The translations under genes were made by a program, and so were the position numbers. From Alteromonas sp. RKMC-009 (GTDB lineage: Bacteria > Pseudomonadota > Gammaproteobacteria > Enterobacterales > Alteromonadaceae): a stretch of 64,000 nucleotides of DNA. The notes beneath the pieces are model-generated. The model made no database searches. It was not told the origin of the DNA and saw only the letters and a list, made by a program, of their open reading frames with translations. Positions 33,784-55,434 of this stretch are shown one piece after another. Position 1 is the stretch's first letter; each line of letters starts with the position of its first letter. The stretch lies in assembly GCF_003584565.2 (NCBI RefSeq), contig NZ_CP031010.1:1240001-1304000 (forward strand). Direction: 5' to 3'.

Positions 33784-33822
33784 ATACCTCCTGAGTATTT
33801 CTTCGGACTAAATCAATATTGG
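33784..33822 (+). promoter_or_regulatory. CatM/BenM-type operator, extended form (catB-catA-ben operon)
   Basis: ATACCTCCTGAGTAT (33784-33798) is an exact ATAC-N7-GTAT match. After 15 bp comes CAATATTGG (33814-33822). The same arrangement occurs at 55396-55434 and, inverted, at 50284-50322. ATAC-N7-GTAT is the established BenM/CatM binding sequence of Acinetobacter; the second element may be the activation half-site. Confidence 0.8.
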
Positions 33823-33883
33823 TTGTAAATAATAAATATCTGTAAGTTGCATTTAGAAGGTAATTGGTAACACGAATTTAACA

Positions 33884-35002
33884 ATGGCAACTATATCACA
33901 AATTAACTCATACATAGTCGATATTCCAACAATTCGACCTCACAAACTCTCGATGACCTCAATGGCTGTGCAATCGATGGTCATTGTGAGGATACGTGAT
34001 TCAGAAGGAAGAGAGGGGATTGGCGAAGGTACCACTATAGGTGGTTTGGCTTACGGCGCTGAAAGCCCGGAGAGTATTAAAACCAATATCGACAGTTACA
34101 TTACACCTTTGCTGAAAGGCAAGGGTACAGACAATCCTCAGGTTGTTATGCAAGACATTCACCGCGCAATACGCGGAAACAGCATTGCCAAATCAGCCAT
34201 AGAAACCGCACTTCTGGATCTACTTGGCAAAACTTTGAATGTTCCTCTATCCACACTGTTAGGAGGAACTTTGCATTCCCACATTCCTTGTTTGTGGGTA
34301 CTGGCTTCCGGCGATACTCAAAGAGATATTGACGAGGCGAAAACCATGATTGCAACTGGTCGTCACAATACGTTCAAACTCAAAATTGGCAATCGCAGTG
34401 TGCAGGATGACGTTGCTCATGTTGCAGCTATTAAATCTGCTCTGGGGAACGAAATTAGTATTCGCGTGGATGTGAATCAGGCTTGGACGGAATCAGATGC
34501 GAATTTGGGTATGGCTCTGTTGCAAGAGGCCGGAGTCGATATTGTTGAGCAACCTACTTCAGCCGGTCAGCTCGACAGCCTTGTGAGATTGGCAGATAAG
34601 TACCGCATCGGCGTTATGGCCGATGAGTCCATTTCAAATATCAATGATTGTTTCGAATTAGCGAAAAGGGGCTTCTCAGGTTCTGTCGCTTTAAAGATTG
34701 CTAAAGCCGGCGGACCGGTACAGGCGCTAAAAGTGGCAACCGTTTGTCAGGCTGCGGGAATCGATCTCTACGGAGGAACCTTACTTGAAGGTTCTATCGG
34801 AACTGCTGCTGCAATTCATGCCTGGTCAACACTCCCTGAACTTCAGGCTGACTCAGAGATGTTTGGTCCTCTTTTACAACGTGATGACATAGTCACAGCA
34901 CCTCTAAATTATCACAACTTTGGCGTTGATGTGCCCCGGGGACCGGGTCTGGGACTGACGCTGGACGAAGATAAGTTGAAGGAATACGCCAGAAGTTACT
35001 GA
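33884..35002 (+). CDS. catB: muconate cycloisomerase, copy 1
   Basis: 372 residues, enolase superfamily, MLE subgroup. It converts cis,cis-muconate to (+)-muconolactone. Active-site residues are visible at Lys165 and Lys167 (FKLKIG), Asp196 and Asn198 (RVDVNQAW), Glu222 (VEQPT), Asp247 (ADES) and Lys271 (ALKIAKAGG). It opens the catB-catA-benABCD operon. A second copy (55495-56610) is about two-thirds identical by eye. No good Shine-Dalgarno is seen before the ATG. Confidence 0.95.
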   Translation: MATISQINSYIVDIPTIRPHKLSMTSMAVQSMVIVRIRDSEGREGIGEGTTIGGLAYGAESPESIKTNIDSYITPLLKGKGTDNPQVVMQDIHRAIRGNSIAKSAIETALLDLLGKTLNVPLSTLLGGTLHSHIPCLWVLASGDTQRDIDEAKTMIATGRHNTFKLKIGNRSVQDDVAHVAAIKSALGNEISIRVDVNQAWTESDANLGMALLQEAGVDIVEQPTSAGQLDSLVRLADKYRIGVMADESISNINDCFELAKRGFSGSVALKIAKAGGPVQALKVATVCQAAGIDLYGGTLLEGSIGTAAAIHAWSTLPELQADSEMFGPLLQRDDIVTAPLNYHNFGVDVPRGPGLGLTLDEDKLKEYARSY

Positions 35003-35087
35003 AAGCTTTTGAAAGGTGGAAGTAAGCCGGGTGGCAGCTTCCCAACAAACAGGCAGAAAACCCGTTACAAATTATCGGAGAAAAAAG

Positions 35088-36029
35088 ATGACAATCACCA
35101 CCAATATCATGAATACCGACCACGTTAAAGAATTGCTCCATAAAGCAGCCGGACTCGATAAAGAAACAGGCAGTGCCCGAAATAAGCAGATTATGCATCG
35201 GCTACTTACAGACATTTATACGATGATCGAAGATCTGGACATCACACCGGAAGAATTTTGGCAAGGTGTGAACTACCTCAATGAACTGGGAGCTAACGGT
35301 GAAGCTGTATTGCTTGCACCGGGGCTCGGGTTTGATCATTTCCTGGATTTACGGGAAGACGCTAAAGATGCCCTGGCCGGTGAACTCGGCGGCACACCGC
35401 GTACTATTGAAGGTCCGTTGTATGTGGAAGGCGCGCCATTGAGTGATGGAGAGGCCAGAATGGACGATGGCCAATCACCCGGACAGGAAATGTGGCTTCA
35501 CGGACAAGTGCTCGATGAAGCCGGCAACCCGCTTGCCGACGCGATTGTAGATATCTGGCACGCAGATAAGAAAGGGGGTTACTCTCACTTCGATCCTACC
35601 CAAAGTGAATTTAATCTTCGTCGCCGTATTAAGACCGATTCTGAAGGAAAGTATCGCGCGCGCAGCATTGTACCCAGCGGTTATGGTTGTCCTCCTGGAG
35701 GCTCTACGATGAAAGTGCTTGAAAGTCTTGGACGTCATGGCAACCGTCCGGCTCATATTCACTACTTTGTTTCAAAGCCTGGGTATAAACATCTCACAAC
35801 TCAAATCAATCTTGCGGGTGATGAATATACGTACGATGACTTCGCCTTTGCCACAAGGGATGAATTGGTTGTTGAAGCTGTTGAAGTCACAGACAGCAAA
35901 CGCATTACTGAAAAAGGTTTTAAAGACAACTACCTGGATGTGGAATTCAATATTTCATTGATGCAAACCAGTGACGACGAAAAGCAGAACAAACACGCTC
36001 GTGCTCGTGCGGCTGCGAGTCAGGCGTAA
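35088..36029 (+). CDS. catA: catechol 1,2-dioxygenase
   Basis: 313 residues from ATG 35088, with GGAG 9 nt upstream; an earlier in-frame start at 35016 has no support. Intradiol dioxygenase: the Fe(III) ligands are Tyr165 (KGGYSHFD), Tyr199 (SGYGCPPG), His223 and His225 (RPAHIHYF). It cleaves catechol to cis,cis-muconate. It lies 85 bp after catB and 26 bp before benA. Confidence 0.97.
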
Positions 36030-36055
36030 CCACGAAATTTGCCAGGAGAAATAAG

Positions 36056-37423
36056 ATGAAAGCAACTTTGTCACAACTTGAGCAAAGAGTTCGCGGTGCC
36101 GTCGAGGCAGATGAAAAAACCGGACATTATCGCTGTGATCGCAGTATTTTCACCGACACGGATCTGTTTGAACTCGAGCTAAAGCACATTTTTGAAGGTA
36201 ACTGGGTGTTTCTTGCTCATGAAAGTCAGATTCCTGAGGTAGGGGATTATTTCACGACTACAATTGGGCGCCAACCAGTCGTTATTACCCGCAATAAAGA
36301 TGGAGACTTGAATGCCATTCTGAATACCTGCTCGCACAGGGGGGCTACGCTTTGTCGCCGCAAACGTGGTAACAAAACTTCATTTACCTGTCCGTTTCAT
36401 GGATGGACTTTTAACAATTCAGGCAAGTTACTAAAAGCCCGCGATCAAAAGAAAGGCGGTTACCCTGAGTCTTTCAATAAAGAGGGCTCTCATGATCTTA
36501 AGCATATTGCTCGTTTTGAATCATACAGAGGGTTTTTGTTCGGTAGCTTGAACAGCGATGTGTTGCCGTTAGAACAATACCTTGGCGAAACCACCAAAGT
36601 GCTGGACAACATTGTTGATCAGGATCCTGATGGTATCGAAATCTTGCGCGGAACGTCGACCTATACCTACGAAGGTAACTGGAAGCTCACCGCAGAGAAT
36701 GGCGCTGATGGTTATCATGTAGGCACTGTGCACTGGAATTACTTGTCAACAATGGGACATCGCAATTACGAAGATGGCGGCACAGAAGCTGTCGATGCCA
36801 AGAGTTGGTCAGGCGAGGGCGGTTTTTATTCTTTCGAAAACGGCCACATGATGCTGTGGACGCGGGTAGCTAATCCGACAGCACGACCTGTTTACAGTCT
36901 GCTCGACGAACTTAAGGAAAAAGTCGGTGAGGCTCGTGCCGACACAATAGTTAATCAAACGCGTAATCTCTGCCTTTATCCAAATGTATACGTGATGGAC
37001 CAGTTCTCAACGCAAATTCGCGTACTGCGCCCGATTTCAGTGAATAAAACAGAGATCAGTATCTATTGTTTTGCGCCGAAAAATGAATCTGCTGAAAGCC
37101 GACAAAAACGTCTCCGTCAGTATGAGGATTTCTTCAATGTTTCAGGAATGGGAACGCCTGATGATTTGGAAGAATTCCGCGGCTGTCAGCAAGGCTACGA
37201 AGCCCGTGATATGCGCTGGAACGACATGAGTAGAGGTGCAGCTCACTGGATGGAAGGACCTGACGATTACGCTAAATCTGTCGGAATGGATACCATCGCA
37301 ACAGGTATCAAACCTGAGGATGAAGGGCTCTATGTACATCACCATAAACACTGGGTGGATGAAATGTTACAGGCTATTCAATTTGAGAAGGCCGCTCAAA
37401 TCCCTGTTGTGCAGAAAGGTTAA
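36056..37423 (+). CDS. benA: benzoate 1,2-dioxygenase, large subunit
   Basis: 455 residues. The Rieske [2Fe-2S] site is Cys92, His94, Cys112 and His115 ([10 protein letters not shown] ... CPFHGW). The catalytic domain has the iron-binding [13 protein letters not shown] motif. With BenB and BenC it dihydroxylates benzoate to the 1,2-cis-diol carboxylate. It sits tightly between catA and benB. Confidence 0.96.
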
Positions 37424-37435
37424 GAGGTATCAATC

Positions 37436-37918
37436 ATGACATATCAAGAGATTCAGGCATTTATTTTTCGCGAGGCCAGGTTGCTCGATGACCGGCAGTG
37501 GGACGACTGGCTGACTTGTTATCATCCTAAGTGCGAGTATTGGATGCCTGCATGGGATGATGACGACAAGCTGACAACTGATCCGACAAAAGAGATTTCG
37601 CTCATTTATTATCCGAATCGCAATGGCCTCGAAGACCGGGTTTATCGCATTAAGACAGAACGTTCAGGAGCCAGTATGCCTGAGCCGAGAACAACTCATC
37701 AGTGTGCCAATCTAGAAGTTCTCGAGCAAACCGAAGGCAAAGCTGAAATTCGCTATAACTTCAATACTCTCAGCCACAGGTATAAAGAAACTACGCGGTT
37801 CTTCGGTACTATCTTCTGCACACTGGACACGTCAGGAGAGCTGCCAGTGATCACGAGTAAGAAAATCGTACTTAACAATGACTATATCAATCAGGTCATT
37901 GATGTTTACCACCTTTAA
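37436..37918 (+). CDS. benB: benzoate 1,2-dioxygenase, small subunit
   Basis: 160 residues, NTF2-like fold of ring-hydroxylating dioxygenase beta subunits (FIFREARLLDDRQWDDWLTCYHPKCEYWMPAW, ending KIVLNNDYINQVIDVYHL). It forms the alpha3beta3 complex with BenA; 12 bp after benA. Confidence 0.96.
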   Translation: MTYQEIQAFIFREARLLDDRQWDDWLTCYHPKCEYWMPAWDDDDKLTTDPTKEISLIYYPNRNGLEDRVYRIKTERSGASMPEPRTTHQCANLEVLEQTEGKAEIRYNFNTLSHRYKETTRFFGTIFCTLDTSGELPVITSKKIVLNNDYINQVIDVYHL

Positions 37919-37933
37919 GATGGAGTAGAAGTT

Positions 37934-38956
37934 ATGTCTTTTAAAGTTGCGCTCAATTTTGAGGACGGGGTTACCCGCGTAATCGAATGCAATGATGGTG
38001 AAACAGTTCTCGATGCTGCTTATCGGGCTCATGTGAAACTGCCAATGGACTGCTCCGACGGTGTTTGCGGAACCTGTAAAGGTACGTGCAAGCAGGGAAA
38101 ATACGATTTAGGTGATGAGTACATAGATGAAGCGCTGACAGATGACGAAGCTGCTGATGGTGTGGTTCTCACTTGTCAAATGGTGCCGGAATCAAATGTA
38201 GTCGTCAGTATTCCCGCAGCTTCATCACTCTGTTCATCCGGACCACAGAGCCTTACTGCTACTGTAGAGACTGTGCAGTCTTTATCGGAGACAACAATTG
38301 AACTTAATGTGACGTTGTCCGAACCACTGCAGTTTCTTCCTGGACAGTACGTCAATCTGGGGATTCCGGGGTCAGATGACAGCAGGGCATATTCTTTCAG
38401 CTCGGCACCGGGCGCACAAAAAGCCAGCTTTCTTATCAGAAACGTTCCCAACGGTAAGATGAGCTCATATCTTCGAGATAAGGCTGCGCCTGGTGACGAG
38501 CTCCCCCTTACCGGCCCATTAGGTAGCTTCTATTTGCGTGCAGTTGAAAGACCTGTGCTAATGCTTGCCGGAGGGACTGGTCTTGCACCTATTCTGTCGA
38601 TGTTAGAGCTGATTGCAGAAGAGGGAGCTGAGAAACAGGTATTTTTACTTTACGGCGTAACAAATGTAGATGATTTGGTGAAGCTGGAAGCATTGAACGC
38701 GTTCGCAGAAAAAATGAGTAATTTCTCTTATGCAACCGTTGTGGTGAATCCGGATAGTAAGCATGAGAAATTAGGCTTTGTTACTGAACACATGAATGCG
38801 GTTCCATTTGCAATTGCAGACGCCGATACCTATTTGTGCGGACCACCTCCTATGGTCGATGCCGTAAGGCAATATTTCAAACAGGAAGCAACTGAGCCGG
38901 CAAGCTTCCATTATGAGAAATTCAATCCGAGCACCCCGAAAGAGAAAGCCGCATGA
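37934..38956 (+). CDS. benC: benzoate 1,2-dioxygenase reductase
   Basis: 340 residues. An N-terminal plant-type [2Fe-2S] ferredoxin (Cys40, Cys45, Cys48, Cys81; CSDGVCGTCKGTC), then a flavin domain (RAYSFSS) and an NAD domain (GGTGLAP, YLCGPPPMVDAV). Electron donor from NADH to BenAB. The last 4 bp overlap benD (ATGA). Confidence 0.96.
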   Translation: MSFKVALNFEDGVTRVIECNDGETVLDAAYRAHVKLPMDCSDGVCGTCKGTCKQGKYDLGDEYIDEALTDDEAADGVVLTCQMVPESNVVVSIPAASSLCSSGPQSLTATVETVQSLSETTIELNVTLSEPLQFLPGQYVNLGIPGSDDSRAYSFSSAPGAQKASFLIRNVPNGKMSSYLRDKAAPGDELPLTGPLGSFYLRAVERPVLMLAGGTGLAPILSMLELIAEEGAEKQVFLLYGVTNVDDLVKLEALNAFAEKMSNFSYATVVVNPDSKHEKLGFVTEHMNAVPFAIADADTYLCGPPPMVDAVRQYFKQEATEPASFHYEKFNPSTPKEKAA

Positions 38957-39732
38957 ACCGGCGTTTTGAGGGGCAAGTTATAGTAGTGACTGGTGCCGGG
39001 CAGGGAATTGGTCTTCGGGTAGCAGAACGTGCATCAGAAGAGGGAGCTAAAGTCGTTTTGGTGGACCGTGCCAGTCATATTCACGAAATTGCTTCTTCGC
39101 TTGTGAAACAAGGCAAAGAAGCTATTGCAGTTGAGGCTGATCTTGAGACCTGGGAAGGGGCTGTTGGCGCTGTTGAGAATGCTAAGGCCCATTTCGGCCA
39201 CATTGACAAGCTCATCAACAATGTGGGAGGTACGATCTGGGCCAAGCCTTATGAGCACTATCAACCTTCAGAGATAGAAAAAGAAGTACGCCGTTCTTTA
39301 TTCCCTACACTCTGGTGTTGCAGGGCTGTACTTCCTGCTTTACTTGAAAATGGTCATGGCGCTATTGTGAATGTGTCTTCTGTCGCGACCCGCGGGGTAA
39401 ACCGTGTGCCATATGCTGCTGCCAAAGGCGGCGTAAACGCACTAACTGTGGCGCTTGCATTTGAATATGCGGAGTATAACATCCGCGTAAATGCCACGGC
39501 ACCGGGTGGCACTGACGCGCCGGCCAGAATCATCCCAAGGAATGAACAGCAGCAATCTGACGAAGAAGCAATCTGGTATCAGCAGATTGTTGATCAGACC
39601 AAAAATACTAGTTTCATGGGCCGTTACGGCACGTTGGATGAACAGGCTTCCGCAATTTTGTTTCTTGCGTCAGACGAAGCAAGCTACATAACTGGCACCA
39701 TTTTACCGGTTGCCGGAGGAGATTGTGGCTGA
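38953..39732 (+). CDS. benD: cis-1,2-dihydroxybenzoate (benzoate diol) dehydrogenase
   Basis: 259 residues, classical short-chain dehydrogenase: TGAGQGIG nucleotide site, NNVGG, the catalytic Ser in NVSSVATR and Y-x-x-x-K in YAAAKGG. It oxidises and decarboxylates the BenABC product to catechol. The coupled start with benC supports the assignment. Confidence 0.95.
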   Translation: MNRRFEGQVIVVTGAGQGIGLRVAERASEEGAKVVLVDRASHIHEIASSLVKQGKEAIAVEADLETWEGAVGAVENAKAHFGHIDKLINNVGGTIWAKPYEHYQPSEIEKEVRRSLFPTLWCCRAVLPALLENGHGAIVNVSSVATRGVNRVPYAAAKGGVNALTVALAFEYAEYNIRVNATAPGGTDAPARIIPRNEQQQSDEEAIWYQQIVDQTKNTSFMGRYGTLDEQASAILFLASDEASYITGTILPVAGGDCG

Positions 39733-39764
39733 CATTCGTCGTATAACCCTTCAACCATTGCAAA

Positions 39765-39794
39765 CATTCCGGTGACAGTTCTGTCACTGGAATG
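39765..39794. repeat. intercistronic hairpin between benD and benE
   Basis: CATTCCGGTGACAG and CTGTCACTGGAATG form a 14-bp stem with one mismatch and a 2-nt loop. It lies 32 bp after benD; no U-run follows. It may stabilise the upstream mRNA or lower transport-gene expression. Confidence 0.6.
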
Positions 39795-39916
39795 CTTGTT
39801 ACCAGACTCAGTCTGCCACTCGCTATTACACACTATCCATTCTGCGAATTTATCGCTTCTCAAAGTAACCAGTCTTTTTGCCTTTTCTAAAATGTAACAC
39901 ATGAGGAATCTTCAAT

Positions 39917-41119
39917 ATGTCCGGACCTTCTAATTCTGTATTTTTTCCTCCATTGAAAGACTGGTCGCTGTCCGCTGCAGTTGCCGGTGTTTTGGCTTCT
40001 ACAATGGGTTATGCGGGGCCGCTTGTTATTCTTTTTAAGGTTGCAGAAGCTGCGAATCTGAGCAATGAAGTACTGACATCCTGGATATGGGGGATGTCAA
40101 TTGCCAGTGGTTTGTTGTGCGGCTGGTTCAGTTTGAGATACCGGATACCATTGCTGTTTGCCTGGAACGCGCCGGGCTCAGCATTACTGGTAACGCTTGT
40201 TCCGGGTATGGCGTGGAGTGAGGTGATTGGCGCTTACGTAATGGCTGGCGTAATTCTGTTGCTGCTTGGAATTTCCGGGGCTTTTGAAAAGTTAGTCAGA
40301 CGACTACCGCTTTCAGTTGCGGCGGCCTTACTAGCAGGCATTCTTGTGCATTTTAGTCTGGATTTATTTTCGCAGATGTCCGGCTCGCCAATGCTTGGAA
40401 TCACTATGTTCGTTGCCTATATTATTTTGAGGCAGCTTTTACCTCGTTATACCATTATGCTCACTGTGGCTATTGGTGTGTTGGTACTTCTGGCCACCTA
40501 CGATTTATCTTTTTCAGATGTGCAATGGAAAGTATCTGTGCCTCAGTGGTACTGGCCAACATTTTCAATCACGTCTCTTTTCAGTATCGCCATACCTTTG
40601 GTGCTGGTTGCTGTAAGCGGTCAGTTCATTACTGGGATCGCTATCCTGCGACAGGACAAATATGATCCGCCGGCAAATTCTATTGTTGCCGGTAGCGGAT
40701 TGTTAAGTATTTTGTTCGCTCCTACAGCCTGTCATGGCGTTAATCTTTCGGCTATCACAGCTGCAATTTGTACCGGTAAAGACGCTAACCCGGATCCGGG
40801 GAAGCGGTATTTCGGACCAGTAGTCGCAATGCTCTGGTATCTTATGTTTGGTCTGTTTAGTGCTGCTTTAGTCAGTATTATTCAATCATTTCCGGCCGCA
40901 TTCATTGCGATGGTAGCTGGTATAGCACTATTAGGCGCCCTCGAAGGCTCGCTAAATGCCGCTATGAGCCAACCCACACAGCGAGAAGCGGCATTGTGTA
41001 CATTTCTGGTAACAGCGTCTGATCTGTCATTGCTAGGGCTATCTTCTGCTTTTTGGGGGCTGATATTTGGTGGCGGGATCGTATTAGTTCAGAGTTTTTT
41101 ACTTCGCAAAAATCAATAG
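39917..41119 (+). CDS. benE: benzoate transporter, BenE family
   Basis: 400 residues with about 12 hydrophobic helices. Family features include NAPGSALL early, PLVLVAVSGQFITGIAILR in the middle, FAPTACHGVNLSAITAAICTGKD (conserved in BenE), and a final IFGGGIVLV. Probable benzoate:H+ symporter, 184 bp after benD beyond a hairpin, possibly a weaker part of the same transcript. Confidence 0.93.
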   Translation: MSGPSNSVFFPPLKDWSLSAAVAGVLASTMGYAGPLVILFKVAEAANLSNEVLTSWIWGMSIASGLLCGWFSLRYRIPLLFAWNAPGSALLVTLVPGMAWSEVIGAYVMAGVILLLLGISGAFEKLVRRLPLSVAAALLAGILVHFSLDLFSQMSGSPMLGITMFVAYIILRQLLPRYTIMLTVAIGVLVLLATYDLSFSDVQWKVSVPQWYWPTFSITSLFSIAIPLVLVAVSGQFITGIAILRQDKYDPPANSIVAGSGLLSILFAPTACHGVNLSAITAAICTGKDANPDPGKRYFGPVVAMLWYLMFGLFSAALVSIIQSFPAAFIAMVAGIALLGALEGSLNAAMSQPTQREAALCTFLVTASDLSLLGLSSAFWGLIFGGGIVLVQSFLLRKNQ

Positions 41120-41447
41120 GAAGGGTTTAATAATTAAGGTTCAAAGGCTCTTCTGACAACATACCTTCTAAGTATCACTTTTAACAAATATGGTATTTGT
41201 TAAGCAATTTTAGTTTCGTTATTTTTCAATGTGTAAACAATTGTTAAACAAAATAATAACTAACTTTTTACTTTGTGGTGTTTACGAGCGCTTGTCAGTG
41301 AACGTCTCTTTCAATTCAGATTGAAAGGCTAAGGCCAAATTCTGAAGTCTGACAGCAGTCCGGCCAGATTATGATGCAATTAAGACGTTGCTGTCTCAGT
41401 TAGCATTATTTTCAGGTCATAAAATGAAAAGTCAGTAGAGGCTTCAT
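41120..41447. other. intergenic region upstream of the tannase-family gene
   Basis: 328 bp with no gene. It contains the ATAC-N7-GTAT site (41161-41175) and a perfect dyad CTTTCAAT-TCAG-ATTGAAAG (41308-41327) about 120 bp before the start codon. The AT-rich stretch between them likely holds the promoter. Confidence 0.6.
41161..41175 (+). promoter_or_regulatory. CatM/BenM-type operator upstream of the tannase-family gene
   Basis: ATACCTTCTAAGTAT, an exact ATAC-N7-GTAT match lying 42 bp after benE and 272 bp before the tannase-family start. Its N7 (CTTCTAA) is close to that of the porin site (CCTCTAA). The CARTATTGG element found at three other sites is not clear here. Confidence 0.7.
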
Positions 41448-43298
41448 ATGATTCGTACAAAGAAAAACACACAATTCCAAAAGCTTTTATTTAATCGAAA
41501 TCTCATTTACGCAGCGTTGTTTATGCCAGTTGTTGCCCTGACGGGCTGCGGTGATGATGAACCTGATGATGGTGATATTGCCGAGCTCCCCTCAGAAACA
41601 GTTTTGAGTTGTGATGACAGTTTCATCACAAGCCTTGAAACAGACTCAGAAACCAGTGTCCTTCTGGTGCATGCATTTGCTCAGGGCGATGAGATAACTC
41701 TGGATGGATCCGAAACAAACATGACTGCAGCGGTAGACATGTGTCTTGTAAAGATACTGGTTGGGCCCGGGAATCCGGGTACTGATGGATTGCCTTCGAC
41801 TTCACAAGGTATCGGGGTAGAAATATGGTTACCTGGTCCCCAAAACTGGAATGGCAGAATCCGGAACCTTGGCGGAGGTGGGTGGGCAGGTGGCTCACAA
41901 ACATCACTTACAGAAATAGGTAACAGCCAGGCTTCTCTGGTAGCGGAACAGGGATTTGTGGTAGGAACTACTGATACTGGTCACACGGTAACAGGAACTG
42001 GCTCTTTCGCTATGGACGAAAACGGTTCTGTCAATGAGAGGTTATGGGAAGATTTTGCTGACCGCGCACTTGAAAAGCTCGCGGAAAAAACAAAAGACAT
42101 AGTTAAGCAATACTATGGTAAAGAGGAAGATTATGCATATTGGGATGGTTGCTCTACTGGAGGTCGTCAGGGTTATAAGATGGCTCAGGAGCATCCTGAA
42201 TATTACGATGGCTATTTAAATCAAGCTCCTGCAATTAATTGGACTCGTTTTATTACCAATGAGTTATATCCTCAGATAGTGATGCAACAGGAGCTGGGTG
42301 GTCCTATTGCTTCAGAAAAACTGGCGTTAGTTAGTGGAGCGGCGGTAAGTGCATGTGATGTTATCAACGACCAGCACTTAGGTTTCATCGTTGATCCTAA
42401 CTCTTGTGCTTACAATCCCCTGAAAGATGAGGAAGTTCTGTGTGCAGGAGAAGTTGGTGATGGGGTTACCGGTATTAGTGAAAGCAGCGCATGTGTATCG
42501 GAGGCCGAGGCGGTAGCAATTAATAAAATTTGGTATGGTCAAACCGTTGACGGAACCGCACCAGATCCAGACGAAGATAATGCTGGAAATGCATTCCTCA
42601 CAGCGGAACATAAACAATTGTGGTGGGGGTTAGACCGCGGTACTAATCTGGAGTATTTGTCTGGCAGTATTTTTGGCCCGTTCTCAATCTCTTCTGACCT
42701 GGTAGCGTTGGAATTGCAAGATCCAACAATTGCGACTCCGACTTTCAGGAATTCAACCGGGAATGGCGAAGATGGTTGGAAATTGCTAAGTTACGCTGAC
42801 TTAGCGTATGCATATACTGAAGGTTTAGCGTTACAAAATTGGTTTGGTAATATAAATACTGATAATCCGGACTTATCTTCGGCTAAAGAGAGTGGAGCCC
42901 GGATCATCAGTTATCACGGTCTCGCGGACCAGTTAATTACCGCAGACGGATCAATAAACTATTTTAATCGTGTCGCAGATAAAATGGGAGGAATGGAAAA
43001 TGTTCAGGATTTCAATCGTCTTTATTTAATACCTGGCTATGGACATTGTAGAGGCATAGGATCTGTAAACGGCACGGAAAGCCCGGAACTAAACGCCAAT
43101 AATGTGCCTCTTCCGGCCCCTGAGCAATTCTTTAATCTACTTATGGATTGGGTAGAAAATGGCGTTGCTCCGCCCGATGATGTGATCCTCAGCTCAGCTG
43201 ATGATAGTGTGACAATGCCCGTCTGTTCATATCCGAAAAAGGCAGTTTATAGCGGCACTGGATCTATTACAGATGCATCAAGTTACACGTGTGAATGA
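41448..43298 (+). CDS. tannase/feruloyl-esterase family lipoprotein
   Basis: 616 residues. Lipobox ALTGC (Cys34) with Gly at +2, so an outer-membrane lipoprotein. The tannase-family nucleophile elbow GCSTGG has Ser236 (YWDGCSTGGRQGYK). The catalytic Asp and His are likely in the YHGLADQLI and PGYGHC motifs. Two Cys flank the active site as in the family's CS-D-HC arrangement. Relatives hydrolyse aromatic esters (tannins, feruloyl/chlorogenic esters, MHET). The substrate is unknown; in this context it may release benzoate or related acids, an inference supported by the nearby BenM-type site. Confidence 0.88.
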   Translation: MIRTKKNTQFQKLLFNRNLIYAALFMPVVALTGCGDDEPDDGDIAELPSETVLSCDDSFITSLETDSETSVLLVHAFAQGDEITLDGSETNMTAAVDMCLVKILVGPGNPGTDGLPSTSQGIGVEIWLPGPQNWNGRIRNLGGGGWAGGSQTSLTEIGNSQASLVAEQGFVVGTTDTGHTVTGTGSFAMDENGSVNERLWEDFADRALEKLAEKTKDIVKQYYGKEEDYAYWDGCSTGGRQGYKMAQEHPEYYDGYLNQAPAINWTRFITNELYPQIVMQQELGGPIASEKLALVSGAAVSACDVINDQHLGFIVDPNSCAYNPLKDEEVLCAGEVGDGVTGISESSACVSEAEAVAINKIWYGQTVDGTAPDPDEDNAGNAFLTAEHKQLWWGLDRGTNLEYLSGSIFGPFSISSDLVALELQDPTIATPTFRNSTGNGEDGWKLLSYADLAYAYTEGLALQNWFGNINTDNPDLSSAKESGARIISYHGLADQLITADGSINYFNRVADKMGGMENVQDFNRLYLIPGYGHCRGIGSVNGTESPELNANNVPLPAPEQFFNLLMDWVENGVAPPDDVILSSADDSVTMPVCSYPKKAVYSGTGSITDASSYTCE

Positions 43299-43396: not shown

Positions 43397-44188
43397 TCAT
43401 ATACCCGCTATTTTCCGGGTTGCTGCTTCACACGCGTTAATAACTGACTGAACATAAACACAGCTTTTAGTAACGGGCGTATCACTGCTTAAGCCGAGCA
43501 AACTTACCACTGAATTCACAGAGCCATCCAGGCTAAATATCGGAGCTGCGATCACATTGATGTCCGGTAAAAAATCCTCTTTAAAACAGCACAACCCTTC
43601 TCTTTTTATTTCATTCAGAAGGCTGTAAAACTGTTCTTTGTAAACAGGTTTTCCCATGTATCTGGGTAAGGGGGCGGGGGCGTTAAAATACGCTTCTACA
43701 AGTTCTCTTCGACGCGATAGTGGGAGGTTTGATAGGAAAATTCTTCCTGCAGCGGAATTAAAAGGTGAAAGTTCAGAGCCAAGGCGGATATTCACCGGAA
43801 GGAAGCGGCTTGAGTCCAGCCATTTGATAACCAGTGGTACATCTCCATTCCAGATGGTGATAGTTATTGTTTTATCGAGCTCCTGATGCAACCGGTCTGC
43901 ATATTCGAAGGCGACCTGAACGGGGTTCAGGTTCCTTAACGCTGACATTCCTAATCGTACACTACTGAATGACAGGGTATATTTTGAATTTTCTAGCTGA
44001 GCCACATAACCTAATTTAGTGAAACTCACCAGGTACTTATGAAGTCTGCTTGGGCTCATATTAGAAAGTTCAGATAGTTTCGTTAGCGAAACCGGAGAAC
44101 TGTGTTCGGCAATGAGTCTGAGAACTTCCATTCCCAACTCCAGTGAATTTATGCCTTGTCTCGCCGAGACGCCTTGTTTTTCTGACAT
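43397..44188 (-). CDS. IclR-family regulator
   Basis: 263 residues: an N-terminal winged HTH (GMEVLRLIAEHSSPVSLTKLSELSNMSPSRLHKYL) and a C-terminal IclR effector domain (FNSAAGRIFLSN, then EDFLPDINVIAAPIF). Located just downstream of the liv-type ABC operon on the same strand, behind its terminator. It probably regulates the transporter or the esterase; the ligand is unknown. Confidence 0.88.
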   Translation of the reverse strand: MSEKQGVSARQGINSLELGMEVLRLIAEHSSPVSLTKLSELSNMSPSRLHKYLVSFTKLGYVAQLENSKYTLSFSSVRLGMSALRNLNPVQVAFEYADRLHQELDKTITITIWNGDVPLVIKWLDSSRFLPVNIRLGSELSPFNSAAGRIFLSNLPLSRRRELVEAYFNAPAPLPRYMGKPVYKEQFYSLLNEIKREGLCCFKEDFLPDINVIAAPIFSLDGSVNSVVSLLGLSSDTPVTKSCVYVQSVINACEAATRKIAGI

Positions 44189-45008: not shown

Positions 45009-45009
45009 C

Positions 45010-45768
45010 TCAGAATACCTCATCGTCATTACCCAGGTACGCTTCCTGGACCAGTGGGTTTGAACGGATATTATCGACGACATCTGTGATTAAGTGTTGA
45101 CCATCCACCATCACTGTCATCAAATCTGACAGTTCAAAAACCGCGTCCATATCGTGCTCTACCAATACAATGCAATATCTTTGCTTCAGCTTTTTAAGCA
45201 GCTCAATAATAGTCTGAGACTCCTCATGACCCATGCCAGCCATTGGCTCATCCAATAACAAGACTTGCGGGGCTGTAGCGAGTACCATAGCAATCTCTAA
45301 TTGCCTTTGTTCACCGTAACTGATGGCTCCGGCACGGGTATTTGCACGACGGCTAAGACCAGCCTGCTCAAGCGCGTCCAGCGCTATTTCTCTCACTTTC
45401 TTATCAGCCTGACGTGGTTGGAACAAGTTAAAGCACTTACCTATACGCTGCTGCGCGGCGATGCTGCAATTTTCTAAGCATGTAGCTTCCCTGAAAATAT
45501 TCGTTTTCTGGAAACTACGTCCAATACCTTTGCGACAGAACTGGTAACTTTTCAGGTTGGTTATGTTCTCACCCTTATAGAGAATCACGCCTTTGGTAGC
45601 CGGGTATGTTCCGCAAAGAATATTCAGCATTGTGCTTTTCCCTGCGCCATTAGGACCGACTATGCCGTGTACTGATTTGTCATGAAACTTGATGTTAAAT
45701 TCATTCAGAGCTTTAAGTCCGCCCCAATGTTTGGAGAGATTCTCCGCTTGTAAAATGCAATCGTTCAT
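45010..45768 (-). CDS. livG: branched-chain-type ABC transporter ATPase (LivG-like)
   Basis: 252 residues. Walker A GPNGAGKST, signature ISYGEQRQLEIAMVL (S-Y-G-E-Q as in LivG), Walker B VLLLDEPMAGMG, and a switch His in LVEHDMD. Overlaps livM by 4 bp. Confidence 0.94.
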   Translation of the reverse strand: MNDCILQAENLSKHWGGLKALNEFNIKFHDKSVHGIVGPNGAGKSTMLNILCGTYPATKGVILYKGENITNLKSYQFCRKGIGRSFQKTNIFREATCLENCSIAAQQRIGKCFNLFQPRQADKKVREIALDALEQAGLSRRANTRAGAISYGEQRQLEIAMVLATAPQVLLLDEPMAGMGHEESQTIIELLKKLKQRYCIVLVEHDMDAVFELSDLMTVMVDGQHLITDVVDNIRSNPLVQEAYLGNDDEVF

Positions 45769-46733
45769 TTTCGTTTCCCCGTGACAAACTGTTCAACCAG
45801 ACCCGCGATTCCACTTTTCAGTGTTAACACCATAATGATGATCAGTGACCCCATCCAGAACATCCAGTATTGCGTCATATGTTCAATGACATAATGAAGG
45901 CTCTCATAAACGAATACGCCAAGAATGGCACCAAAAATAGTACCTAGTCCGCCAAGAATGGCCATAACCAACGCAGATGCAGAAACCTCCCAGGACATCA
46001 TCGTAGGATTTACAAACCCATATTGGAGCGAGAAAAGGTATCCGGCATAAGCAGCCAAAGACGATGACAAAACGTACGCAATCAGACGGAAATGAAAAAT
46101 GTTGTAGCCGAGCGCCAATGCTCTGTCAGGATTTTCCTTTATTGCGTCAATAACCCTTCCGAAACGTGAATTGAGACTGATTTTACAAAACAGATAGCAA
46201 TTGAACAGTGAAAGCAGGCAGAGGTAATAAAAGTGAATTTCATTATCCAGATCGAGAAAGTTCAACCCGAAAATACTGGTTTCGGGTTTCAGGTAGATAA
46301 ACAGGCCGTCGAGACCACCATATTCGGTAGAGTCTGCGAAAAAGTAGAAGGTCATTTGTGCCAGTGCCAGTGTTATCATAATCATATAAATGCCACTTGT
46401 GCGAAGTACAATTAAACCCACTACAAACGCTATAACTGCACTGGCAGTCATTACATAAAAGGTATACAGCCAGAAATTAACCACTTCATATTCCGGAAGC
46501 ATAATAGCGAACAGATAACCTCCCAGTCCGTAGAACATCGCGTGCCCTAAACTGATAAGACCGGTTCTGCCAACCAGATAATCCAGCGACATGACGAATA
46601 TTGACAGGATGAGCATGCTGGAAATTTTGTTTACATAGAACGTGTTTTCATTGAAGAACAAGGGGATCCCAAGGGCAATGAAAAAGAACGCGAGAATGAA
46701 TATTTTTTCAGCTTTGGTAGAAAATACAGACAT
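45765..46733 (-). CDS. livM: branched-chain-type ABC transporter permease (LivM-like)
   Basis: 322 residues, about nine membrane helices. LivM pattern: DYLVGRTGLISLGHAMFYGLGGY, SRFGRVIDAIKENPDRALALGYN (the ATPase-contact motif) and LGGLGTIFGAILG. The transporter family also imports aromatic acids in several bacteria. Confidence 0.93.
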   Translation of the reverse strand: MSVFSTKAEKIFILAFFFIALGIPLFFNENTFYVNKISSMLILSIFVMSLDYLVGRTGLISLGHAMFYGLGGYLFAIMLPEYEVVNFWLYTFYVMTASAVIAFVVGLIVLRTSGIYMIMITLALAQMTFYFFADSTEYGGLDGLFIYLKPETSIFGLNFLDLDNEIHFYYLCLLSLFNCYLFCKISLNSRFGRVIDAIKENPDRALALGYNIFHFRLIAYVLSSSLAAYAGYLFSLQYGFVNPTMMSWEVSASALVMAILGGLGTIFGAILGVFVYESLHYVIEHMTQYWMFWMGSLIIIMVLTLKSGIAGLVEQFVTGKRK

Positions 46734-46742
46734 CGGTATACC

Positions 46743-47606
46743 TTAACTTTTGAATAGCCCTTGTGGTTTGAAAATGAGGATAATTGCCATTAACAGATAA
46801 ACTGTCATGCTCGACATCCCCGGTAACAAAACAGACGCGAAGGTATCTACGATGCCTACAAGCAAAGCTGCGACGAAGGCGCCTTTTATGGATCCCATTC
46901 CTCCGATGACAACCACTACAAAGCAGGATATTAAAACCCTTTCACCCATACCTGGCACCAGGCTGACAATTGGCGCTGATACGATTCCCGCCAGTGCAGA
47001 TAAGGTAACGCCAACGGCAAATACAATGGTGAAAAGCTTGCCAATATTTACGCCCAGATTTTCCACCATTTCCCGGTTTGATTCTCCAGCCCGGATCATC
47101 ATTCCAAGTTTTGTGTTATTGATGATGTAGTACATCGCAACGGCGATTGCTACACACAATACTGAGACGAATAAGCGGTAAACTGGATACTCAACAATGT
47201 CAGTTATTTGTATTGAGGAAGAGAGAAGTGATGGCACCTGAACGCCAAGAGGATCATTGCCCCAGATAAAGCTCTGTGCAGCATTAAAGATAAAAATCAG
47301 ACCGACAGTTAACAGAACCTGATCCAGATGATCCCGTTTATATAAATGTACGATCAGAAAGCGCTCAATAACTATTCCGAGAATCATTGCGATAAGACAT
47401 GCAATGATAACCGCAAATAAGAAGTTATCTGTTACCGTCGCGAAGTAATACACGAGGTAAGCGCCAATCATATACATTGAACCGTGGGCAAGGTTCAGTA
47501 TTCCCATTACGCCAAAAACTAACGTAAGCCCGGATGCAATCAGAAACAGGAGAAGCCCGTATTGAACACCATTCAACAACTGCACCAGGAATAAAGACAT
47601 ATCCAT
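46743..47606 (-). CDS. livH: branched-chain-type ABC transporter permease (LivH-like)
   Basis: 287 residues from ATG 47606, with AAGGTG upstream; the longer frame has no support. Characteristic LivH sequences are LNGVQYGLLLFLIASGLTLVFGVMGILNLAHGS, then RAGESNREMVENLGVN and GGMGSIKGAFVAA. Nine bp before livM. Confidence 0.93.
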   Translation of the reverse strand: MDMSLFLVQLLNGVQYGLLLFLIASGLTLVFGVMGILNLAHGSMYMIGAYLVYYFATVTDNFLFAVIIACLIAMILGIVIERFLIVHLYKRDHLDQVLLTVGLIFIFNAAQSFIWGNDPLGVQVPSLLSSSIQITDIVEYPVYRLFVSVLCVAIAVAMYYIINNTKLGMMIRAGESNREMVENLGVNIGKLFTIVFAVGVTLSALAGIVSAPIVSLVPGMGERVLISCFVVVVIGGMGSIKGAFVAALLVGIVDTFASVLLPGMSSMTVYLLMAIILIFKPQGLFKS

Positions 47607-47658
47607 ACTATTACACCTTATAAAGGAAGCCCGCAGGCTTCCGTACAACGCTTGATGC

Positions 47659-48846
47659 TTATAATCTGCAACCGCGAGCAGGGTCACTCAGCTCGCTTGC
47701 GGCAGTTTTAACTACAACATTTTCTCCGTTTTCAACCTTTCTCAGGTAAATGTTCTGAATCGGGTTATGTGCTTTAGAAAAACGGAATGCACCACGGGGG
47801 CTGTCTATTTCCACCTTCTCCATCGCTTTGATCAGCGCATCTTTATCGCTTGTGTTACCCTTTGTAGCTTCGACAGCCTGAATTATTAATTGTCCGGCAT
47901 CGTAACCCTGAACAGCGTATAAATCGGCAGGCTTGTTGTAGAGTGACTGGTAATGTTCACGGAAGGCTTTATTTTTCGGATTATCAAGCGTATCTGCATA
48001 GTGCAGCGTGGTGAGTAAACCTTCAGCAGAGTCACCTTGTGCTTCAATTGTTCCTTCCGTCAGGAATCCTGAACCGATAAGTGGAATTTTGCCTTTGAGG
48101 CCCAGAGCATCGTAATCTTTTACAAATTTGACTGAGCCGCCGCCAGCAAAGAATACGAAAACAGCATCTGGTTTAATTGAGGCTATTTCTGTCAGGTAAG
48201 ACTGGAATTCTGTATTGGGAAACGGAACGTATATCTTTTTAACAACTTCGCCCCCTGCTTTCTCATAGGATTCTTCAAAAGCTTCTAAAGACTCCTTACC
48301 GAAACCATAATTCCAACTCATGGTTACGACCTTCTTATAGCCCATTTCAACCGCTTCGCTTCCCATAGGATATGCGGTCTGCCAGGATGAGAATGATGTC
48401 CGGAATACATTGGGCTGGCAAAAGGCGCCGGTCGCAGCATTGGCTCCCGCATTGGGAATAATCATGATGGAATCTTTATTTCGGATGGTTTTTATCATCC
48501 CCATAGCTACACCAGAGTGAACGGGTCCTACAATGAAATCGGCATCGTCTTTATCTGCCATTGCAGAGGTGAGTTCCGGCGCCCGCGCTGGTTTTGCTTC
48601 GGTATCACTGATCATGAATTCCACGGGACGACCGGCAATTTCATTACCATGTTCTTTCAACGCTTGTTTGAGGCCATTGGTTGCTGCTTCGCCCAGACCA
48701 GCATAAACGCCGCTATAAGGTAACATTACACCTATCTTAATCGGCTCCTCATCTGCATGGGCAGGAAAAGTAGCCATTAAAGTTGTGCCCATCATGCCTG
48801 TTGCCAACATGCACTGTTTAATAAATTTTTTATTCAGTTTCATCAT
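47659..48846 (-). CDS. livK: branched-chain-type ABC transporter substrate-binding protein
   Basis: 395 residues. Signal peptide ends ...ATFPAHA. Type I periplasmic binding fold (IKIGVMLPYSGVYAGLGEAA, then GYDAGQLIIQAVEA). First gene of the operon, about 52 bp before livH. The ligand is not readable from sequence; the neighbourhood suggests an aromatic or ester-derived acid. A second ATG at 48843 is also possible. Confidence 0.92.
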   Translation of the reverse strand: MMKLNKKFIKQCMLATGMMGTTLMATFPAHADEEPIKIGVMLPYSGVYAGLGEAATNGLKQALKEHGNEIAGRPVEFMISDTEAKPARAPELTSAMADKDDADFIVGPVHSGVAMGMIKTIRNKDSIMIIPNAGANAATGAFCQPNVFRTSFSSWQTAYPMGSEAVEMGYKKVVTMSWNYGFGKESLEAFEESYEKAGGEVVKKIYVPFPNTEFQSYLTEIASIKPDAVFVFFAGGGSVKFVKDYDALGLKGKIPLIGSGFLTEGTIEAQGDSAEGLLTTLHYADTLDNPKNKAFREHYQSLYNKPADLYAVQGYDAGQLIIQAVEATKGNTSDKDALIKAMEKVEIDSPRGAFRFSKAHNPIQNIYLRKVENGENVVVKTAASELSDPARGCRL

Positions 48847-48974: not shown

Positions 48975-50144
48975 TTAGAAGTCGTATCTTGCTGAAACTT
49001 GTACCCGGCTCATGTCGCCGTCGAAACCGTTGACTGTTTCACGTTTGGCATAGGTATATTCAATACCAAGTGAGAGGGGAGCTGTTATGTGCTGGATGTA
49101 ATTGATTCGGGTGCTGTAAACATCGTTAGTCAATGAACCCACCATGCCTTCAATCGTGTCGACATCCAGAGATGAGAAAATTATGTTTGACCGTGAACGC
49201 TCATTCCATGTATGGCGATACGCCAACGTAACGGCGGTAGCGTCAACAGCCTCAAACTTGCCTTCGGCATTAAGAAATGCACCATTTGCGGCGTTCACAC
49301 CCACATATCTGCCAATACCAGAACCACTGGCAACCTGAATACGAATGTCATCACCATTACCAATGTTAATTCTTGAAGACAGCGAGAGCGAAACCCCAGT
49401 CTCGGTATAATCCTCTTCTGCAATTTCGTAAGCCAACTGGCGAACAAGACCACCGAATTTCACGTGGCCCCAGCCAGTTTTCATTGTGTAGGTAGCAATA
49501 AGATCCGGAACCGAGTTATCGTCTGTTGTAATCTGGGCTGTCTCGGTAGTACCGACAGTTGTTTCAGGATTTTCCAGAGCAATAGAAAATCCATTATTGG
49601 TATAGCGGATTTGAGGTTGACGGGTAAACGCAACGCCGTCGGTCGTTCCGATAAAGTCTACTGAATCGACCAGTGCACCGAGATCCATTATGGTTGACCA
49701 TGTCTGGCCTACCAGCCAGTTACCATATTGCAGATATGCATGACGTAACCTTGGTACATATGAGTTACTTACTCTCTCGTCACCGCCAGAAGTCAGCAGA
49801 AAATCAAACTCCAGGACTCCTGTAACGCTGTTTTCGCCATCAACAGGTGTATTGGTTGTAAATCTGAAACGGGATTGTTTTGCATGAGCGTCAAATCGTC
49901 CGCCTAGATCATCATCTTCAGCGCCTGTCTGGACCAGAGAGGGAACGTAGATATCTCTCATCGGGCCAATACCTTCACCGTTTGAATAATCGCTGTACAT
50001 TGCGTCGACCTTAATATAGCCATTAAATTTTACATCTGTACCAGCAATGTTGGCAGCGCTTGCCGTTTGGAGTTGAGTGAGTGCAGTAATTGTTGATACA
50101 GCGAGTAGGGTTTTGTTGAGCGTTTTTCGTTCTAAAGTGTTCAT
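48975..50144 (-). CDS. DcaP-like outer-membrane porin
   Basis: 389 residues from ATG 50144, with GGAGAG 5 nt upstream. Signal peptide ends ...QLQTASA. The mature start (DVKFNGYIKVDAMYSDYSNGEG) and RVSNSYVPRLRHAYLQYGNWLVGQTWSTIMD match DcaP-type trimeric porins for dicarboxylic and aromatic acids. The C-terminal barrel strand ends in Phe (VQVSARYDF). A CatM/BenM-type operator lies about 150 bp upstream, so it is likely the outer-membrane entry for the same substrates. Confidence 0.85.
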   Translation of the reverse strand: MNTLERKTLNKTLLAVSTITALTQLQTASAANIAGTDVKFNGYIKVDAMYSDYSNGEGIGPMRDIYVPSLVQTGAEDDDLGGRFDAHAKQSRFRFTTNTPVDGENSVTGVLEFDFLLTSGGDERVSNSYVPRLRHAYLQYGNWLVGQTWSTIMDLGALVDSVDFIGTTDGVAFTRQPQIRYTNNGFSIALENPETTVGTTETAQITTDDNSVPDLIATYTMKTGWGHVKFGGLVRQLAYEIAEEDYTETGVSLSLSSRINIGNGDDIRIQVASGSGIGRYVGVNAANGAFLNAEGKFEAVDATAVTLAYRHTWNERSRSNIIFSSLDVDTIEGMVGSLTNDVYSTRINYIQHITAPLSLGIEYTYAKRETVNGFDGDMSRVQVSARYDF

Positions 50145-50283
50145 GGTTCTCTCCGTTGGAATTTGCAAAACACACGCTTTTATCTGAAACGTCCGAACAA
50201 CACTGCTCACATCCTTGTTGTAAAATAAGTGTTATTTGATTGTTTCTTTATTTGGAGAAATTACGTTGAACTTTTTACATTAT

Positions 50284-50322
50284 CCAATACTGAATGAGTC
50301 CCGTGGGATACCCTCTAAGTAT
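50284..50322 (-). promoter_or_regulatory. CatM/BenM-type operator, extended form (porin)
   Basis: Read on the minus strand: ATAC-N7-GTAT (50322-50308), 15 bp, then CAGTATTGG (50292-50284). This is the same order, orientation relative to the gene and spacing as the operators before both catB genes. The gene start is 140 bp downstream. Confidence 0.78.
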
Positions 50323-50650: not shown

Positions 50651-50668
50651 GACTTACGGCGACTGGTT

Positions 50669-53474: not shown

Positions 53475-53475
53475 G

Positions 53476-54291: not shown

Positions 54292-54303
54292 AGTCTCTCC
54301 TTT

Positions 54304-54337
54304 GTTCGATATGCGAATTAAAATTTAATATGCGAAC
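54304..54337 (-). promoter_or_regulatory. IclR/PcaR-like operator in front of catIJFD
   Basis: TTCGATATGCGAA (54305-54317) is an inverted repeat, and ATATGCGAA recurs 19 bp away (54328-54336), ending GCGAAC. The outer ends GTTCG and CGAAC are also inverted. PcaR/PcaU proteins bind similar ~10-bp repeats with both palindromic and direct spacing. It lies about 13 bp upstream of the catI start codon. Confidence 0.55.
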
Positions 54338-54561
54338 AAAATAAGCCATACTGTCTGTGACCGTCAAGATAAATTGTTAAAATTTTGTGCGGTCATTTGT
54401 TGTGGCATATTCAAGCTATTGATTTGTAAGCTAAGTATTCGAATACTTAAACGCGTAAAATAATTAGCTGCATGGTTAGGACGTGTTGGATAGAATTCAT
54501 CCTGGGATGGCGAAGGGCTGCATACCGCAGAAATTTCAAACGACAAAGTTTTTAGGACAAG

Positions 54562-55341
54562 ATGGAAGACGAAAGTATTACACCAGAACATCGCGATTTC
54601 GTTGGTGCGTTAGCTTCGGGTCTCGTAGTTATCCAGGCTTTTGATGCCAGTCACCGGCAAATGACTTTATCGGAAGTTGCTGAAAGAGCAGGAATGGACA
54701 GAGCAAAAGCCAGGAGGTTTCTGCTGACGCTTCATTCGCTGGGTTTTATTCGTAGAGATGGCAGGCTGTTCATGTTAACGCCGAAAGTACTTTCGCTTGG
54801 ATATGCTTATAGCGCAGGCAATGATTATTTACCTGTCGTCGAACATTATCTTCATGAAGTGACTGCAGAACTTGGTGAGTCTTGTTCACTGGCTGTCCTG
54901 GACGGGCAAGACATAATCTATGTTGTACGTTCAAGTGCTGCTCACAGGTTAATGTCGATTAATCTTTCTGCGGGCATCAGATTGCCCGCTGCATACACGT
55001 CGATGGGACGGGTTTTGGCTGCCCAGTTAGGGGCTGATAGGAAGGAAGAGTGGTTGAACGGTGTGTCATTTAGTTCTTATACGAGTTTTAGTGTTAAAGA
55101 CAAGGCACTATTGAGCTCTGAACTGCAGAAAGTCTCAGCTCAGGGGTACTGCATTGTTGATCAGGAATTGGAACTGGGTCTGAGATCCTTAGCAGCACCG
55201 GCTTTCAATCATAAAGGGCACTTAATAGGTGCCGTCAATATAAGTACGAATGCGCTACGGGTTTCACTGGAGGACCTGAAAGAGCGCTGTCTGCCTGTAT
55301 TAATGGCAGCAATAGAAAATATCAGGGTGCATACCCGCTGA
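54562..55341 (+). CDS. IclR-family regulator, PcaR/PcaU/CatR2-like
   Basis: 259 residues. N-terminal HTH (VVIQAFDASHRQMTLSEVAERAGMDRAKARRFL), then an IclR effector domain (AYTSMGRVLAAQL, then VDQELELGLRSLAAPAF, which are typical of PcaR/PcaU). It is divergent from catIJFD. In known relatives the inducer is 3-oxoadipate or protocatechuate. It probably controls catIJFD. Confidence 0.88.
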   Translation: MEDESITPEHRDFVGALASGLVVIQAFDASHRQMTLSEVAERAGMDRAKARRFLLTLHSLGFIRRDGRLFMLTPKVLSLGYAYSAGNDYLPVVEHYLHEVTAELGESCSLAVLDGQDIIYVVRSSAAHRLMSINLSAGIRLPAAYTSMGRVLAAQLGADRKEEWLNGVSFSSYTSFSVKDKALLSSELQKVSAQGYCIVDQELELGLRSLAAPAFNHKGHLIGAVNISTNALRVSLEDLKERCLPVLMAAIENIRVHTR

Positions 55342-55395
55342 ATATAAATTCAGATAGTTCTGCGATGCGAGCCACACATATTAAACAACCGCTCC

Positions 55396-55434
55396 ATACC
55401 CTCAAGGTATAGCCTGATACCAATTCAATATTGG
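55396..55434 (+). promoter_or_regulatory. CatM/BenM-type operator, extended form (catB2-catC)
   Basis: ATACCCTCAAGGTAT (55396-55410), 15 bp, then CAATATTGG (55426-55434). Same architecture as at 33784-33822; it lies 85 bp upstream of the second catB start (61 bp from CAATATTGG). It suggests that the LysR regulator at 32876 also controls this copy. Confidence 0.8.

Follow-up and report, generated by a model that had tools for sequence, protein, structure and literature searches.

We analysed a 64,000-nucleotide stretch of the Alteromonas sp. RKMC-009 genome (contig NZ_CP031010.1, positions 1,240,001 to 1,304,000; hereafter the window, with positions counted from its first letter) that carries ben and cat genes of aromatic degradation. 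One LysR-type regulator of the BenM/CatM group, encoded at 32876-33781, very probably controls four promoters in this window, which precede catB1-catA-benABCD-benE, a tannase-family esterase, a block of porin, ATP-binding cassette (ABC) importer and IclR genes, and catB2-catC. This proposal is drawn from promoter sequence and comparative genomics, and concerns the following regulator and operator sites:

32876..33781, minus strand: LysR-type regulator, BenM/CatM group (Pfam HTH_1 and LysR_substrate; GTG start)
33784..33798, plus strand: Site 1 of the catB1-catA-benABCD-benE promoter, exact ATAC-N7-GTAT, overlapping the LysR ribosome-binding site AGGAGG
33805..33819, plus strand: Site 2 of the catB1 promoter, GGACTAAATCAATAT, at +21 bp
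33819..33848, plus strand: predicted catB1 core promoter, TTGGTT-18-TAAGTT, from in-register columns of 11 aligned promoters
41161..41175, plus strand: Site 1 of the esterase promoter, exact match (matrix score 24.3, rank 4 of 127,870)
41182..41196, plus strand: Site 2 of the esterase promoter, TAACAAATATGGTAT, at +21 bp; predicted -10 TATTTT at 41220-41225
50308..50322, minus strand: Site 1 of the porin-ABC promoter, ATACTTAGAGGGTAT in the direction of the porin gene, exact ATAC-N7-GTAT within the 65-bp pattern given below
50287..50301, minus strand: Site 2 of the porin promoter, GGACTCATTCAGTAT, at +21 bp; predicted -10 TAATTT at 50263-50258
55396..55410, plus strand: Site 1 of the catB2-catC promoter, exact ATAC-N7-GTAT within the 65-bp pattern
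55417..55431, plus strand: Site 2 of the catB2 promoter, ATACCAATTCAATAT, at +21 bp; predicted -10 TAAGTT at 55455-55460

A sequence-only reading of this DNA had picked out exact copies of the BenM/CatM consensus, ATAC-N7-GTAT, at 33784, 41161, 50308 and 55396, with none elsewhere in the window, and had joined them into a single regulon. A pattern scan returned the same four positions and no others. All four are intergenic and lie, as that reading held, upstream of catB1-catA-ben, the esterase, the porin and catB2-catC, the site at 50308 serving the porin on the minus strand. Dinucleotide shuffles of the window (n = 100) contained a mean of 0.83 matches, and four were attained in one shuffle.

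Each copy forms part of a larger promoter. Downstream of Site 1, at +21 bp in the orientation of the gene, all four promoters have an imperfect dyad, NNAC-N7-RTAT (Site 2), which lies two helical turns away over a -35 element predicted from the sequence. BenM/CatM promoters are described in the same terms, with a perfect Site 1 and an imperfect Site 2 that overlaps the -35 (PMC6628147; here and below, papers are cited for those parts of their text that were available). Our promoter alignment comprised 14 promoters, of which three near-duplicates (from genomes G026 and G057) were removed before counting. Among the 11 distinct promoters that remained, TTGG stands at the end of Site 2 in ten (the esterase promoter has TTTG) and TANNTT occupies columns 60-65 in all; the spacer from the predicted TTGGTT-like -35 to the -10 is 18 bp.

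The complete promoter, unlike the 15-bp consensus, is specific. Across the whole genome (5,012,246 bases, two contigs), ATAC-N7-GTAT matches 70 times, versus 29 for a backwards control, and the window count of the bare consensus is therefore weak evidence. The tandem ATAC-N7-GTAT-N6-NNAC-N7-RTAT, by contrast, has exact matches at four places in the genome, which are these four, each facing its gene. A 65-bp pattern that joins Site 1, Site 2 and the -35/-10 columns, allowed up to three mismatches, also finds only these four places, all with 0 mismatches, and its controls find none. Because this pattern was composed after the alignment had been seen, we trained a separate matrix on relatives only (seven promoters from four other genomes, themselves chosen by the tandem pattern) and scanned the window with it. 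Of the 127,870 window positions, the four sites take the top four ranks, with scores of 55.7, 39.1, 31.0 and 24.3; the next position scores -7.7, and the best score in 20 shuffled 32-kb stretches is 1.4. The sequence-only reading had suggested a motif scan as a check and had named many random genome-wide matches as the outcome that would tell against it. The scan favours it in the window and finds the bare motif unspecific in the genome, and the objection applies to the 15-bp consensus but not to the full promoter. The 70 genome matches might suggest that a common palindrome has simply turned up here four times by chance. This is hardly credible, as the full promoter is confined to these four places in the genome and relatives keep it at catB/ben and the porin.

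Searches for further members of the regulon gave none. The tandem with up to two mismatches found 28 + 29 places in the genome against 26 + 20 for its control, which is about chance, and the 65-bp pattern found nothing in the genome beyond the four. An inner consensus, ATACCYYCNRRGTAT, matches the genome exactly at four places and no more. We set it aside as evidence because it was derived from the same sites, because the porin site conforms to it only when read on the strand opposite its gene, and because the CCTCC at 33784 is the ribosome-binding site of the LysR gene.

Regulator and operator occur together across the genus. A close relative of the LysR protein is present in 7 of 59 genus genomes (this one included), and benA is present in the same seven. 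All seven LysR-bearing genomes carry the exact tandem, versus two of the 52 without the regulator (one tandem each); the hypergeometric P for this overlap is about 1e-7, uncorrected for kinship, and the promoters of G017 and G026, and of G048 and G057, are nearly identical. One genome, G005, has an additional tandem outside its ben cluster. In five relatives the tandem stands before catB-catC-catA-ben; in G035 it stands before benA, and the LysR gene there follows benE. In a wider set made up of the loci of the best 80 of 587 LysR relatives (L127 among them being the contig of G057), the 600 bp upstream of the LysR gene contain ATAC-N7-GTAT in 56 loci and the exact tandem in 23, and five control patterns were found in 0 of 80 each.

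This linkage bears on whether another regulator reads the sites. Two IclR-type regulators are encoded in the window, at 43397 and 54562; the latter, PcaR-like protein (IclR2) scores above the PcaR/PcaU/PobR cut-off and adjoins catB2, and both genes recur in several relatives. However, BenM/CatM promoters are described with this dyad and with a Site 2 that overlaps the -35 (PMC6628147), the site stands beside the LysR gene in the 56 wider loci just mentioned, and in G035 it lies on a 26-kb contig with the LysR gene and without IclR2. We consider control by either IclR protein very improbable.

The porin promoter heads a larger block on the minus strand:

48975..50210, minus strand: DcaP-family porin (PF19577, 87.9 bits; the likelier start is an ATG near 50144)
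44295..48846, minus strand: ABC importer with livF-, livG-, livM- and livH-like genes and a substrate-binding protein (Pfam)
43397..44188, minus strand: IclR regulator that closes the transport block (Pfam; 86.3 bits versus a PcaR/PcaU/PobR cut-off of 284.75)

The porin score is well above the PF19577 cut-off of 27 bits, and its PDB relative is the DcaP-like 6eus (68 bits). The closest PDB relative of the substrate-binding protein is 4evq/4evr (359 bits), which we take to be RPA0668 of Rhodopseudomonas palustris. RPA0668 binds benzoate with high affinity (PMC3223731), and this binding has been entered as empirically proven (PMC6079105). By homology, the block would provide an aromatic-acid ABC importer with a benzoate-binding substrate-binding protein. 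Porin, substrate-binding protein, livHMGF (two permeases and two ATPases) and IclR form one unit here and in G005, G048 and G057, and because the porin operator heads this unit, the regulon is wider than the sequence-only reading had said.

The operator follows the porin. It is present at all five orthologs with at least 74% identity (this genome, G005, G035, G048 and G057), with one mismatch and an inexact Site 1 in G035. None of the 25 paralogs with at most 58% identity whose flanks were compared carries the tandem or ATAC-N7-GTAT, including those of the LysR-bearing G017 and G026. Among the 52 porin matches listed, 30 had loci; the other 22 were covered by the exact-tandem scan only, which found no tandem there. 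Between genomes the porin block is inverted, and the operator moves along with the porin. Two Litchfieldella genomes have a second tandem approximately 360 bp upstream of an ABC substrate-binding gene of the same type, with no porin between them. Among 28 class-wide porin loci, the tandem was found in this genome only, two other loci having unrelated two-mismatch matches. The porin very probably belongs to the regulon, as the sequence-only reading had it, although not alone. That reading had also held the esterase and the porin to be outside the classical ben/cat genes. A precedent exists in benPK of the BenM regulon of Acinetobacter ADP1 (cited in PMC7573547 and PMC12338516), but it belongs to another porin family.

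The remaining arm is a single gene on the plus strand:

41448..43298, plus strand: tannase/feruloyl esterase family protein (PF07519; lipoprotein-like N-terminus, LTGC-G)

Its score of 261.3 bits exceeds the PF07519 cut-off of 29.8. The best PDB relatives are 8bhh/6fat, a carboxylic ester hydrolase (131 bits), then 6g21, a feruloyl esterase B-2 (128 bits), and MHETase (98-99 bits). In the alignment to 8bhh/6fat, the motifs GCSTGG, HGLaD and GHC are kept, and to these we assign what we take to be a Ser-Asp-His triad with paired cysteines. By eye, the N-terminal LTGC followed by G resembles that of a lipoprotein. Three other tannase-family proteins are encoded in the genome (C1:274105, 1213821 and 3801549), with 28-37% local identity to the esterase.

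The esterase has few relatives. Among 120 database relatives listed of 2,284, the best of near-full length has 62% identity, and one partial relative has 78% over 66% of the query. Any match occurs in 8 of 295 family genomes (this one included), the best elsewhere reaching 132 bits and 34% identity (G051); among 369 class genomes, a match past 1e-100 was found in this genome only, and a search of genome contigs for the esterase gave none. In six relatives, the element that follows benE is the porin operator (G005), an IclR gene (G048 and G057), an aldehyde dehydrogenase gene (G017 and G026) or the LysR gene (G035), and never the esterase. Because no close ortholog was found in the sampled genomes and none of these six relatives has an esterase after benE, the esterase and its operator look like an addition in this lineage.

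It could be supposed that the catB/ben and porin-ABC regulon is real, whereas the esterase operator is a chance or relict sequence, such as a rearranged porin promoter, that does not drive the esterase. In favour of this, besides the lack of a close ortholog in the 295 family and 369 class genomes sampled, G005 has its porin operator at the corresponding place after benE, and the esterase start, approximately 273 bp past Site 1, lies approximately 220 bp downstream of the predicted -10. A simple scan found no terminator between benE and the esterase, so that read-through from benE is possible. Against this, the esterase promoter keeps both sites, their +21 spacing and the -10 columns, has 0 mismatches to the 65-bp pattern, and scores 24.3 where the next window position outside the operators reaches -7.7. 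Its likeness to the G005 porin promoter (50 identities over 110 bp) falls within the 43 to 56 of several others. We regard a chance or relict operator as unlikely. For the esterase, then, the claim of regulon membership made in the sequence-only reading has a complete promoter in its favour and no close ortholog in the sampled genomes to extend it, and the substrate release that it proposed is something we can only infer. The gap between benE and the esterase is AT-rich (GC 0.338), and the predicted untranslated leader of approximately 215 nt (41226-41447) has no Rfam match.

Several observations weigh against a single LysR-controlled regulon. In addition to the 70 genome-wide matches of the 15-bp consensus, the backwards tandem control has one exact match in this genome and five across the 59 genus genomes. 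Within 600 bp upstream of the LysR gene, ATAC-N7-GTAT is missing from 24 and the exact tandem from 57 of the 80 wider loci. In G035 the importer is encoded separately from the porin and is not preceded by a tandem, and the importer of a Marinobacter (L111) has none either. By matrix score (24.3) the esterase promoter comes last among the four, and no close ortholog was found by which its conservation could be judged. Finally, the LysR protein scores 226.5 bits against NCBIfam NF040709 (BenM; cut-off 600) and 211.4 against NF040710 (CatM; cut-off 580); as it falls below both, we call it a BenM/CatM-group regulator, not BenM or CatM itself. On the other side, promoter architecture, uniqueness in the genome, the matrix trained on relatives and the conservation seen at catB/ben and the porin strongly support the single BenM/CatM-type regulon.

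The best PDB relatives of the regulator are BenM (214 bits) and CatM (188 bits), and, with 40 of the 52 first-look candidates scored, it was the genome's sole match at E ≤ 1e-60. S99, T128, P201 and F203 (A. soli numbering), which presumably line the muconate cleft, are invariant across five aligned proteins. The positions aligned to BenM R160 and Y293 are occupied by F and V, likewise in two relatives. Residues 160 and 293 of BenM are required for its response to benzoate (PMC6628147), and their replacement here makes muconate, rather than benzoate, the likely inducer.

In the region 33779-33798, the minus-strand AGGAGG ribosome-binding site of the LysR gene, read from the sequence, sits inside operator 1. 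As operator 1 covers this site, LysR probably represses its own gene. In many of the wider relatives, ATACCTCC occupies the same place as this overlap. Transposase genes (integrase core domain, Pfam) at 30625-31784 lie beside the regulator gene.

The BenM/CatM tetramer occupies Sites 1 and 3 without effector and Sites 1 and 2 with it (PMC6628147). By analogy, the LysR tetramer would keep the promoters off in the absence of effector, and muconate, formed from benzoate by BenABCD and CatA, would move it onto Sites 1 and 2 and recruit RNA polymerase. The esterase, as an envelope lipoprotein, might then free benzoate or a close relative from an ester, to judge from its regulator; the porin and ABC importer would take up benzoate, and the ben and cat products would degrade it. 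With muconate as inducer, this would amount to a positive loop. We tentatively hypothesize, at somewhat less than even chances, that the loop extends beyond the cell, with an internal product inducing the envelope esterase, which would free further benzoate from an ester outside, together with the porin and importer that take it up, and that the esterase was newly drawn into an old regulon in this one lineage by gaining a complete BenM-type promoter.

The degradation genes form two groups, each behind its own operator:

33884..41119, plus strand: catB1-catA-benA-benB-benC-benD-benE (NCBIfam muconate cycloisomerase, catechol 1,2-dioxygenase, BenB, BenC and BenD; BenE by Pfam)
55495..56908, plus strand: catB2-catC, muconate cycloisomerase and muconolactone isomerase (TIGR02534, 464.6 bits; PF02426, 130.2 bits)

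NCBIfam cut-offs were passed by catB1, catA, benB, benC, benD and catB2, and benA falls below its own (741.2 versus 780.95). Domain calls for catC, the thiolase, the CoA-transferase, the ABC genes and the transposases are based on Pfam, in which pcaD is a general alpha/beta hydrolase only; the names pcaD, pcaF, pcaI and pcaJ rest on domain and gene order. The two catB genes (33884-35002 and 55495-56610) are 64% identical, and catC is here apart from the ben operon, whereas five relatives have a single catB-catC-catA-ben unit. We found no support for catB2 with its operator being a recent duplicate of catB1: besides the divergence of the proteins, the promoters share 48 of 110 bases. In a tree, catB1 groups with the catB genes of relatives, with catB2 outside that group and catB1 flagged as a long branch.

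Further downstream (57059-63782) is a block of genes for an aldehyde dehydrogenase, a GMC oxidoreductase, a twin-arginine subunit, a sigma-54 activator and a MetA-type outer-membrane protein. The aldehyde dehydrogenase-GMC block also occurs near the ben cluster in G005, G017, G026, G048 and G057, has no exact BenM-type operator and may supply the pathway from aromatic alcohols. The sigma-54 pattern TGGCAC-N5-TTGCW, sought for this block with up to one mismatch, was found 0 times in the window, and Rfam at gathering thresholds found nothing in the window.

If our reading is correct, a likely inducer and role can be given to three components of a marine bacterium, namely a DcaP-family porin, an aromatic ABC importer and a tannase-family esterase, and we have an example in which a conserved regulon (catB/ben and porin-ABC) has been joined by a further member in a single lineage. 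Similar regulons can be sought in other Gammaproteobacteria with the 65-bp signature.

Parts of this system are familiar. The substrate-binding protein family is shared with the hbaEFGHI importer of R. palustris (substrate-binding protein RPA0668, presumably 4evq), but the importer here lies behind a porin under a BenM-type operator. The esterase has its family and catalytic motifs in common with feruloyl esterase B and MHETase (PF07519), and differs in its lipoprotein-like N-terminus and its link to a benzoate regulator. Alteromonas macleodii EC673 has genes for benzoate dioxygenase, catechol ortho-cleavage, transporters and regulators, and grows on benzoate; its benzoate cluster is on a transposase-flanked genomic island (PMC6972757), which fits the patchy distribution (7 of 59) found here. 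That account covers genes and growth rather than operators or a regulon, and its main text is without the words porin and esterase. For Betaproteobacteria, comparative analysis predicted BenM/CatM sites at ben, cat and transport genes (PMC6449761), in a main text that is without the word porin and mentions an esterase once, as an AphR target. In a marine Sulfitobacter, a BenM gene lies beside the ben genes, and the words porin and esterase are absent from the available text (PMC9873259). We found no report of an esterase or DcaP porin in a benzoate LysR regulon, in a literature search that scarcely covered subscription papers.

The closest counterpart is Acinetobacter baylyi ADP1, which likewise has BenM/CatM-group LysR regulators, ATAC-N7-GTAT as Site 1, an imperfect Site 2 over the -35, and ben, cat and porin genes in one regulon; in the benA operator of A. 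soli (L185), the second dyad is also at +21. Unlike ADP1, which has two regulators, the Alteromonas system has one, with R160 and Y293 replaced, and its porin is of the DcaP type rather than Occ/OprD. It adds an ABC importer, a tannase-family esterase and a second catB with catC. Taken together, the evidence gives good support to a compact regulon of a known kind but of new composition, in which the esterase and the DcaP porin-importer arm look new.

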